Notes under the pieces: generated by a model
What the model was told of the DNA's origin: nothing
Seen by the model: only the letters and a program-made list of their open reading frames with translations
Databases searched by the model: none
Made by a program: the position numbers and the translations under genes
DNA from: Actinoplanes flavus
GTDB taxonomy: Bacteria; Actinomycetota; Actinomycetes; Mycobacteriales; Micromonosporaceae
Length of the DNA stretch: 64,000 nt
Assembly: GCF_017592555.1 (NCBI RefSeq)
Contig: NZ_JAGFNS010000017.1
Span: forward strand, 44,529 to 108,528
Direction: 5' to 3'
Shown: piece by piece, positions 13,427 to 16,959 of the stretch
How positions within the stretch are numbered: the stretch's first letter is position 1
Layout of the letters: the number at the start of each line of letters is the position of its first letter

Positions 13427-13433
13427 AGTGCTC

Positions 13434-14780
13434 ATGTCGACTCGACGCGAGGTACTGGCCCTGGCATCCGGCGCCGCGCTCACCGCCGCCGCCCTTCCCG
13501 GCCCGGCCACCGCGGCCGGCCGCGCCGACGGGTGGGTCGCCACCTGGGCGGCCGCGCCGACCACGGTGCCACCCGGCGACCCGCTGATCCTCAATGGCCA
13601 GACCGTCCGGCAGGTGGTGCACACCAGCGTGGGCGGCGAGCGGCTGCGGATCCGGCTGACCAACGAGTTCGGCGCCACCCCGCTGCGGATCGGCGAGGTG
13701 CGGGTCGCGATCCGGTCCGGCGACGGCGCGAGCACCGACGCGGTGCCCGGCACCGACCGGCGGGTGACCTTCGGCGGGCGGGAGGCGGTCACCGTGCCGG
13801 CTGGCGCCCCACTGGTCAGCGATCCGGTGCGCCTGGGCCTGCCGCCCGGCGCCGATCTGGTGATCAGCGTCTTCCTGCCGGAGCGCACGCCGGTGACCAC
13901 GCTGGCCGCCTTCGCCTTCCAAGACAACGTGATCGCCACCGGCAACGTGACCGGCGCGGCACGAATCACCCCGACCAGCACGATCGGGCAGTACCTGTTC
14001 CTGTCCGGGGTCAGCGTGCAGGCCGGCGACGGCACCGGGATCGGCGTGCAGGGCGGCGGCGACGGCACCGGGGTCGCCGTGCGGGGCGGCGGCGGTGACG
14101 GGGCGGTGGTCACGCTCGGGGACTCGATCACCAACGGGGCGAACACCGTGACCAACGCCAACCACCGCTGGCCGGACCTGCTGGCCGCGCGGTTCCGGTC
14201 GGCCCGGATCCGGCTCGGGGTGGCGAACGTGGGCATCTCCGGCAACCGGCTGCTGCACGACCCGAACCCGCCGGCGGGCAGCGGGGCCGAGGCGTTCGCG
14301 GCGTTCTTCGGGCACAGCGGGCTGCGCCGGTTCGACCGGGACGTGGTGGCGCAGCCGGGCGTCACGCATCTCGTGGTGCTGCTCGGGGTGAACGATCTCG
14401 GTCATCCGGGCACGGTGGCGCCGCCCGGGGAGGTGGTCACGGCGGACGACCTGATCGCGGGGCACCGCCAGTTGATCGCACGGGCGCGGCTGGCCGGGCT
14501 GCGGGTGTACGGCGCGACGATCCTGCCGTTCAAGGACGACACGCTCGGCTTCTACACGGTGGAGAACGAACGTAAGCGGGCCGCGCTGAACGCCTGGATC
14601 CGGACCTCCGGCGAGTACGACGCGGTGATCGACTTCGACGCGGCGGTCCGCGACCCGGCCGATCCGCTGCGGCTCGCCGCCCGGTACGACAGCGGCGACC
14701 ACCTGCACCCGAACGACGCCGGCATGGCGGCGATGGCGGCCGCCGTGCCTATCCGCCTGTTCCGGCCGGGACCGGGCTGA
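13434..14780 (+). CDS. Secreted SGNH/GDSL hydrolase
   Basis: A secreted esterase or lipase-like enzyme of 448 residues. The N-terminus STRREVLALASGAALTAAALP has a twin-arginine-like signal peptide. The catalytic GDSIT block lies near residue 228, GISGNR near 268, a GVNDLGHPG block near 320, and the catalytic D-x-x-H pair is in HLHPNDAG near the C-terminus. Substrates may be acetylated polysaccharides or lipids. The ATG at 13434 has TCGGAG about 7 nt upstream. Its 3' end overlaps the 3' end of the convergent MFS-Tmk gene by 32 bases. A CCGAAA-g-TTTCGG palindrome overlaps its ribosome site. Confidence 0.88.
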   Translation: MSTRREVLALASGAALTAAALPGPATAAGRADGWVATWAAAPTTVPPGDPLILNGQTVRQVVHTSVGGERLRIRLTNEFGATPLRIGEVRVAIRSGDGASTDAVPGTDRRVTFGGREAVTVPAGAPLVSDPVRLGLPPGADLVISVFLPERTPVTTLAAFAFQDNVIATGNVTGAARITPTSTIGQYLFLSGVSVQAGDGTGIGVQGGGDGTGVAVRGGGGDGAVVTLGDSITNGANTVTNANHRWPDLLAARFRSARIRLGVANVGISGNRLLHDPNPPAGSGAEAFAAFFGHSGLRRFDRDVVAQPGVTHLVVLLGVNDLGHPGTVAPPGEVVTADDLIAGHRQLIARARLAGLRVYGATILPFKDDTLGFYTVENERKRAALNAWIRTSGEYDAVIDFDAAVRDPADPLRLAARYDSGDHLHPNDAGMAAMAAAVPIRLFRPGPG

Positions 14781-16827
14781 GCAGCGACGACAGCCGGGCC
14801 TCGACCGCCGCGGCGATCTCGTCGACCGGCCGGGCGGCGTCCAGCACCAGGTAGCGCTTGGGGTCGGCGGCCGCCAGGTCGAGGAACGCGTACCGGACCC
14901 GCTCGTGGAAGGCCCGGGACTCGCTCTCCAGCCGGTCGGCGGCCTCGCCCCGGGACTCGACCCGGGTCAGGCCGACGCCGGGGTCGACGTCCAGCAGGAC
15001 CACCAGGTCGGGCTTGAGGCCGCCGGTGGCCCACGCCGACAGCCAGGAGATCTCCTGGACCGGCAGGGTCCGGCCGGCGCCCTGGTAGGCCAGGGACGAG
15101 TCCACGTACCGGTCGCTGATCACGACGGCCCCGCGGCTGAGCGCCGGCCGGACCACCGTGGCGACGTGGTGCGCCCGGTCGGCGGCGTAGAGGAGGGCCT
15201 CGGCCCGGGCGGACGGCGTCTCGGCCCGGTCCAGGACTAGCCCGCGGATCCGGGCGCCGATGTCGGTGGCGCCCGGCTCACGGGTGACCACCACGTCGCG
15301 CCCGTCCGCCTTGAGCGCCTCGGCGAGCCGGGTGACCTGGGTGGACTTGCCGGCGCCCTCGCCGCCTTCGAAGACCACGAAGACGCCGGCGCGGGGGAAC
15401 GACTCGGGCGGTGACAGCGGCCGCCCGCGCAGTGACCCGATCAGGTCGGGCAGCACCGGGACGCCGGGCTTGTCGTCCATCTGCCGGAACGCGCCGATGC
15501 CGACCCAGATGCCGATCGCGCCGGCCACCACGAGCAGGACCCGGGTGGCCGAGATGTCGATGTGGAAGAGGCCGAGGTCGACGCGGCGGGAGCTACCGAG
15601 GCCGACCAGGATGCCGGAGAGCGTGATGGCCAGCAGCAGGACGGTGCGGACGCCGATCTGCACCACGGCGAAGGTGCGACCGCGGAGTTCGTCGGCGATC
15701 TCCCCGTACAGAAGGGTGGTGCCGGACAGGAACGCCATGCCGGCGCCGGCGCCGACCATGATGGCGCCGAAGAGCGCCATGGAGAGGTGGATGGAGATGC
15801 CGAGGAACATCACCGAGCCGCTGGCCAGCACGATGCTCATGCCGAACCAGCGTTTGCGGGACAGTTCCTTGACGATCATCGGGCCCAGGCCGATGCCGAT
15901 CGCGAGGCCCATGAAGATGGTGCCGAAGAGCAGGTAGAAGGCGGCCTGGCCGGCGCCGAGCGACTTGGCGAACTTCTCCGCCGCGCCGATCACCACGCCG
16001 CCGGCCCCGAACGCGCCGAAGATGCCGAGGACCAGGCCGCGCACCAGCGGGGTGTGGCCGATGAACTTCCACCCGTCCAGGAACTGGCGGGTCATGCTCT
16101 GCTCGGCGGCCTTCTCCCGGGCGGCGCTCTTGCCGCCGATCTCCTTGATGCCGAAGAAGACGACGAGCGCGGTGGCGAGCCGGGCGAACGCGTTGATGTA
16201 GAGCGCCAGCTGGATGGGCTGGGCCCAGTCGGGCAGGGAGGCGCCGGACTGCTGGAGGCCGGCGGTGAGCGCGGCGAGCGACAGCGCGGCCAGGATCGGC
16301 GTGATCCCGTACGTCGTGATCAGGGTCAGCTGGTTGGAGACCTCGATCTGCGATTTCGGGATGAGGTTGGGGACCGCGGCCTCCTTGGCCGGGATCCAGA
16401 TCAGGGTGATCGTCTCGCCGATGAAGGTGGCGATGGTGGCCCAGGCGACGGTCTGCGCCGGGGTCCCGCCGAGCAGCGGGACGAGCGGGATGGAGAAGTA
16501 GATGACGAACCGCAGCAGGTCGACGATCACCATGGTGTAGCGGCGGTCGAACCGGTCGGCGAAGACGCCGGCGATCGGGCCGAGCAGGAGAGCGGGGATC
16601 AGGCGTACGGCGATGGTGCCGCCGAACGCGGCGCCCTGGGCTGCCGGGTTCTCGAACTGGGCGGAGGCGAACAGTGCGGTGGCGAGCAGGCCGACCCAGT
16701 CACCGAAGGAGGCGGCGGCGAGCACCAGCCAGAGCCGCCGGAAGCCGCGACGCCGCAGCACCGAGCGCAGCGCCGCTATGCCCGATAGGTCGACGGGCCC
16801 CGGGTCCTGTTGCGTTTCCGTGTTGAT
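14749..16827 (-). CDS. tmk: MFS transporter-thymidylate kinase fusion
   Basis: A bifunctional protein. Residues 1 to about 460 form an MFS-like membrane domain with some 12 helices. The C-terminal ~210 residues are a dTMP kinase: P-loop FEGGEGAGKSTQ, TREPGATDIG, then SDRYVDSSLAYQG. It phosphorylates dTMP to dTDP for DNA synthesis. The same fusion is known in Streptomyces and Micromonosporaceae. The start is uncertain: GGGAGGT stands 8 nt before an ATC at 16827, an in-frame TAG precedes it, and no ATG/GTG/TTG lies in frame until GTG 16761, which lacks an SD. The residues between (GIAALRSVLRRRGFRRLW) look conserved, so translation probably begins at or near 16827. Confidence 0.9.
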   Translation of the reverse strand: MNTETQQDPGPVDLSGIAALRSVLRRRGFRRLWLVLAAASFGDWVGLLATALFASAQFENPAAQGAAFGGTIAVRLIPALLLGPIAGVFADRFDRRYTMVIVDLLRFVIYFSIPLVPLLGGTPAQTVAWATIATFIGETITLIWIPAKEAAVPNLIPKSQIEVSNQLTLITTYGITPILAALSLAALTAGLQQSGASLPDWAQPIQLALYINAFARLATALVVFFGIKEIGGKSAAREKAAEQSMTRQFLDGWKFIGHTPLVRGLVLGIFGAFGAGGVVIGAAEKFAKSLGAGQAAFYLLFGTIFMGLAIGIGLGPMIVKELSRKRWFGMSIVLASGSVMFLGISIHLSMALFGAIMVGAGAGMAFLSGTTLLYGEIADELRGRTFAVVQIGVRTVLLLAITLSGILVGLGSSRRVDLGLFHIDISATRVLLVVAGAIGIWVGIGAFRQMDDKPGVPVLPDLIGSLRGRPLSPPESFPRAGVFVVFEGGEGAGKSTQVTRLAEALKADGRDVVVTREPGATDIGARIRGLVLDRAETPSARAEALLYAADRAHHVATVVRPALSRGAVVISDRYVDSSLAYQGAGRTLPVQEISWLSAWATGGLKPDLVVLLDVDPGVGLTRVESRGEAADRLESESRAFHERVRYAFLDLAAADPKRYLVLDAARPVDEIAAAVEARLSSLLSPVPAGTGG

Positions 16828-16959
16828 GGCCCCTACCTCCCGTGGTCACTGCTCGGAGCACTGTAACCGCCCGGTCCATGGGTCGCGGGGCAACCACGAT
16901 CGGGTGGAGCAGAGATGAATGTCTTTCGCGTTACCCATCTCACGGGATACCGTGCTGGC

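Follow-up and report, generated by a model that had tools for sequence, protein, structure and literature searches.

The window, a stretch of 64,000 nucleotides from the soil bacterium Actinoplanes flavus, carries on its minus strand an open reading frame (ORF) for a fusion protein in which an MFS-like membrane part is followed by a dTMP kinase domain (Table 1). The kinase domain matches both TIGR00041 (180.5 bits) and PF02223 (167.3 bits) above their cut-offs of 83.25 and 27, and it contains the P-loop GGEGAGKST and DRYVDSSLAYQG. The P-loop and the DRY-type motif of dTMP kinases are found in all seven loci that we examined. The membrane part scores below the cut-offs of the profiles that it matches, with 77.3 bits against 319.6 for TIGR00900 (residues 29–408) and 25.9 bits against 33.4 for MFS_1. 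The genome encodes at least one further thymidylate-kinase-like gene (L003, G000:C4:189022-189543), which matches PF02223 with 48.2 bits. Eight genomes of the genus (G035, G056, G048, G008, G038, G039, G053, and G037) also have a paralogue of the membrane part only, which is 47–52% identical. In the window, a plus-strand ORF (13428..14780) overlaps the fusion ORF tail to tail by 32 nt (14749-14780). At three loci of the comparative set (L006, L007, and L016), the stops flagged within the match are ends of ORFs, and the alignment extends beyond them. A search of the plasmid collection gave no match.

Table 1. Features of the fusion gene and its start region, in positions of the window
Feature	Position	Strand	Basis
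ORF from ATC, 692-residue MFS-like/dTMP kinase fusion	14749..16827	-	ORF reading and profile matches
MFS-like membrane part, residues 29–408	15604..16743	-	TIGR00900, below cut-off
dTMP kinase domain, residues 480–674	14806..15390	-	TIGR00041, PF02223
Proposed start codon ATC	16825..16827	-	ATC in 65/67 genus loci, with Shine-Dalgarno site 7–8 nt upstream
Shine-Dalgarno site GGGAGGT	16835..16841	-	Sequence; predicted pairing; genus conservation
In-frame TGA stop, upstream of the Shine-Dalgarno site	16846..16848	-	Sequence
GTG, first in-frame ATG/GTG/TTG, rejected as start	16759..16761	-	Shine-Dalgarno pairing -1.9 kcal/mol, not conserved
TACAGT, -10-like box (putative promoter element)	16860..16865	-	TANAGT conservation

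Read directly from the window on the minus strand, the start region is 5'-TGA CCA CGG GAG GTA GGG GCC ATC AAC ACG GAA ACG-3'. The first-pass annotation had proposed a probable non-standard start at the ATC of position 16827, with GGGAGGT just upstream as its Shine-Dalgarno (SD) site, and this arrangement was borne out: 7 nt separate the two elements, or 8 nt when the distance is counted from the GGAGG core. The predicted pairing of the SD is -11.7 kcal/mol at the ATC versus -1.9 kcal/mol at GTG 16761, the 22nd codon after the ATC, in agreement with the earlier statement that this GTG has no SD site. The same annotation had reported an in-frame TAG upstream of the SD. The in-frame stop is instead a TGA (16848-16846), and the TAG lies inside GGTAGG, out of frame. 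Between this TGA and GTG 16761 the window has no in-frame ATG, GTG, or TTG, as had been claimed.

All 67 genomes searched of Actinoplanes sensu lato (Micromonosporaceae) contain the fusion gene, and comparing the codon among them shows that the ATC is not specific to one strain. The start codon column holds ATC at 65 loci, ATA at one (L017), and ATG at one (L049), i.e., an AUN codon other than AUG is kept at 66 of the 67. The rule behind this column required a codon beginning with AT after the SD, and an unfiltered listing gives the same block. The SD is conserved at positions -9 to -13 across the genus. Its spacing to the start is 7 nt at 42 loci, 8 nt at 23, and 9 and 10 nt at one each; when the strict SD spacing is used to pick the codon, ATC is the commonest (64/67). 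Conservation of the codon is by itself no proof of a start, because nine invariant Ile columns inside this gene are equally conserved, each being ATC in 65–67 of the 67 loci. Nucleotide diversity at codon positions 1, 2, and 3 is 0.144, 0.138, and 0.482 in codons 2–22, and 0.147, 0.090, and 0.307 in codons 23–200. Judged by this pattern, codons 2–22 evolve as coding sequence. The motif TANAGT lies at most 60 nt from the start at all 67 loci, and at 60 of them the distance is 30–34 nt. The -10-like box is proposed on this conservation, since a consensus scan for a two-hexamer sigma-70 promoter found none.

The gene extends well beyond the genus. It was detected in 297 of 300 genomes of the family (Micromonosporaceae) at E <= 1e-200 and in all 43 other family genera when these were searched again at 1e-60. 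Sequence matches were found, at the respective thresholds, in 102 of 150 genomes of the order and 92 of 197 of the class. We surveyed the start with one locus per genus in 42 other genera of the family, leaving out Actinoplanes itself and the genus g26, whose match lacks the N-terminus. The strongest SD precedes ATC in 30 genera, ATT in one, ATG in three, and CTG in one, and seven genera have no SD at -7 kcal/mol or better. The SD rule thus selects an AUN codon other than AUG in 31 of the 42 genera and does not in 11. For this rule, start positions had to lie at least 13 codons ahead of the conserved motif, and alternative SD rules give different start choices at some loci. Among the codons that stand at strict SD spacing, ATC ranks first in the rest of the family (39 of 57 loci). 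It also leads in the other families of the order (19/60 loci, followed by CCG with 12), and it falls outside the 14 commonest codons at the 27 loci from elsewhere in the class.

The loci with other arrangements are of several kinds. In g12, g5, and g14 (L174-L176, L244, and L246), an ATG lies nearer the membrane part and the N-terminus is shorter; there, to go by the sequences, the start seems to have moved rather than to have changed from ATC to ATG. In Micromonospora, an ATG that lacks an SD stands in frame at several loci. Inspection by eye of L118 and comparable Micromonospora loci shows an ATG 26 nt upstream of the ATC and out of frame, and an overlapping upstream reading frame is possible. 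The leaders in Micromonospora also contain, again by eye, a hairpin-like GCCCA-GCGA-TGGGC, located downstream of the -10-like box and upstream of the SD. In g19 (L188), the ATG upstream of the ATC is in frame.

The gene of translation initiation factor IF3, infC, has the same start in these bacteria. In the genome studied here (L180, G000:C10) it reads TGA GGAGG CCCC ATC AGC. Among this copy and the best 30 of 107 matches in the family (L318-L347), the start is ATC in 30 of 31 loci and ATT in the other one, and the second codon is AGC in the family loci listed. In other families of the order, ATC was found at 18 of 19 readable loci, in a sample of 30 from which the 11 unread all belong to one family (f4). 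At one locus of the order (L406, in genome G374 of family f15), GTG AGC takes the place of the ATC AGC found at the others.

How rare are ATC starts in the genome itself? We surveyed 770 ORFs in 1.26 Mb (13% of the genome, in stretches that lie outside infC), and three ATC candidates passed the filter. Two of them have a standard codon close by, a GTG with a near SD two codons on in one case and an ATG eleven codons on in the other. Judged by eye, the fusion gene alone is a convincing ATC start among the 770. The filter is noisy, because control codons passed it as often as ATC did (ACC 5, TTC 3, GTC 2, CTG 5, versus ATC 3). A changed anticodon in the initiator tRNA was rejected as an explanation: a search with a stem-and-loop pattern, in which the anticodon was left open and which would miss initiators with other stems, gave two matches, both with the anticodon CAU.

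From these comparisons we put the probability that translation of the fusion starts at AUC 16827 at about 0.9. If it started downstream instead, at GTG 16761 or at another in-frame ATG, GTG, or TTG, the ATC block would be an untranslated leader. GTG 16761 is the first such codon in the window, and a start there would leave the first membrane helix whole. It was nevertheless rejected, on its weak SD and on its lack of conservation: the position is GTC in 29 genus loci, GTG in 27, GTT in eight, and GTA in three, and even a 98%-identical relative (L005) has GTC. No other downstream place is shared widely. The ATG, GTG, and TTG codons within 27 codons of the ATC are scattered, with the commonest place common to just 14 of 67 loci, and 15 loci have none in frame from the upstream stop through codon 28. 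In two species (L010 and L013), the first one after the upstream stop is the 87th codon past the ATC. With the coding pattern of codons 2–22 also speaking against it, a downstream start is very improbable. A start upstream of the ATC, e.g., at a leaderless or weakly led GTG or ATG, would make the ATC an internal Ile codon, and the equal conservation of such codons in this gene is compatible with that. In-frame ATG, GTG, or TTG codons do occur upstream at 34 of the 67 genus loci, and in g9, g19, and g21 an ATG of this kind is preceded by an SD of about -8.6, weaker than that of the ATC but usable. Several observations oppose this reading. The window and 20 other loci of the genus, by our count, have a stop at most six codons upstream with no candidate between, and the SD sits between stop and ATC. 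The spacing of the SD varies between loci by a 1-nt indel directly 5' of the ATC, so any upstream frame is broken. Lastly, at 3 of the 34 loci the upstream codon lies downstream of the guessed transcription start; if TANAGT is the -10 element, the other 31 loci would carry no upstream in-frame candidate in the mRNA. We regard an upstream start as very improbable. The first-pass annotation had also considered that a mutation or a sequencing error turned ATG into ATC in one strain. All that speaks for this is how rare ATC starts are. It is refuted by the same ATC in independently assembled genomes of the genus (65/67) and the family (30/42 genera by the SD rule), which leaves it a negligible probability.

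A further alternative accepts the start at AUC 16827 and denies it a regulatory purpose: the machinery would accept AUC well, and the codon would persist by inertia. This is a serious possibility, with the odds leaning somewhat against it. The ATG that replaces ATC in L049 shows that ATG is tolerated, and several genera use ATG. Against inertia, ATG is found in one of 67 genus loci though it is one base away, and AUC starts looked rare among the 770 ORFs. We compared the third base of the start codon with the 134 fourfold sites of majority C and found it among the more conserved. The median number of G at these sites is 12 among 67 loci; at most one G occurs at 12.7% of them, and at most two bases other than C at 3.7%. 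The comparison suggests selection against ATG at the start codon, and it stays at the level of suggestion because of those 12.7%.

We favour the explanation that the AUC is a conserved weak start, which is combined with a strong SD and against which IF3 probably discriminates, as has been reported for infC elsewhere. As judged from sequence, this is very likely. The strong SD 7–8 nt upstream would position AUC 16827, and the usual fMet initiator tRNA (anticodon CAU) presumably reads this codon despite a mismatch at the third position. The AUC may have been retained because it weakens initiation, and IF3 would reject starts of the AUC type more as its amount rises. IF3 is the most likely control because its own gene, infC, also begins with AUC in these bacteria. 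Taken separately, IF3-linked control of the fusion gene, which we infer from the AUC shared with infC, has close to an even chance, if slightly under it.

Starts of this kind are described in a few other systems. According to PMC13009471, Staphylococcus aureus starts infC and ccpN at AUA and cvfC1 at AUU, each with an extended SD; reporters with AUA or AUU starts reach about 10% of the AUG level in poor medium, and the ccpN reporter up to 30% in rich medium. PMC10158994 states that IF3 disfavours weak third-base pairs, and gives a decrease of AUU/CAU initiation in vitro to 31.1% at higher IF3. Escherichia coli infC and pcnB have AUU starts according to PMC9410913, and infC is presented as autoregulated via IF3 in PMC9410913 and PMC13009471. 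PMC5622118 describes AUG as generally favoured by selection and non-AUG starts as accompanied by stronger SDs. The fusion gene is like infC of E. coli (AUU) and S. aureus (AUA) in having an AUN start other than AUG, and it is like infC of the Micromonosporaceae in its strong SD and ATC. Unlike infC, it encodes a membrane-linked dTMP kinase and not a translation factor, and therefore the control would be of a target and not of the factor itself. In Staphylococcus and Bacillus, ccpN (AUA) and cvfC1 (AUU) also have conserved AUN starts outside infC and strong, extended SDs (PMC13009471). They differ in phylum and in using AUA or AUU rather than AUC, and their starts were mapped by Ribo-Ret and tested with reporters, whereas that of the fusion gene is read from sequence. 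The pcnB gene of E. coli (AUU), described in PMC9410913, is likewise a gene other than infC that is limited by an AUN start, with a different codon and a different enzyme.

The literature examined contains few AUN starts in genes other than infC, and among the top-ranked literature matches we found no thymidylate kinase described as starting at AUC. In Myxococcus, IF3 itself has an AUC start. Non-canonical starts at AUC or other rare codons were reportedly found in Deinococcus deserti by Baudet et al. in 2010, and a 2020 arXiv text by Gvozdjak and Samanta may contain cases akin to this one.

The sequence evidence thus presents the fusion gene as a real case of a conserved non-AUG start in an unexpected gene, kept over a long evolutionary span. 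Gene finders limited to ATG, GTG, and TTG will misplace this start. The 120 database relatives listed range from 655 to 910 residues, a spread that need not all stem from the choice of start. The AUC is kept across the genus, in most of the sampled genera of the family, and in part of the order, in a metabolic enzyme, as it is in infC. The dTMP kinase fusion and IF3 might form a small, old regulon of AUC starts across many families of the order, in which falling IF3 would raise translation of both and couple the supply of the DNA precursor dTTP to the condition of the translation apparatus; we consider this extension rather unlikely. With the fusion gene, one could directly test whether genes beyond infC are under IF3 control in Actinobacteria.
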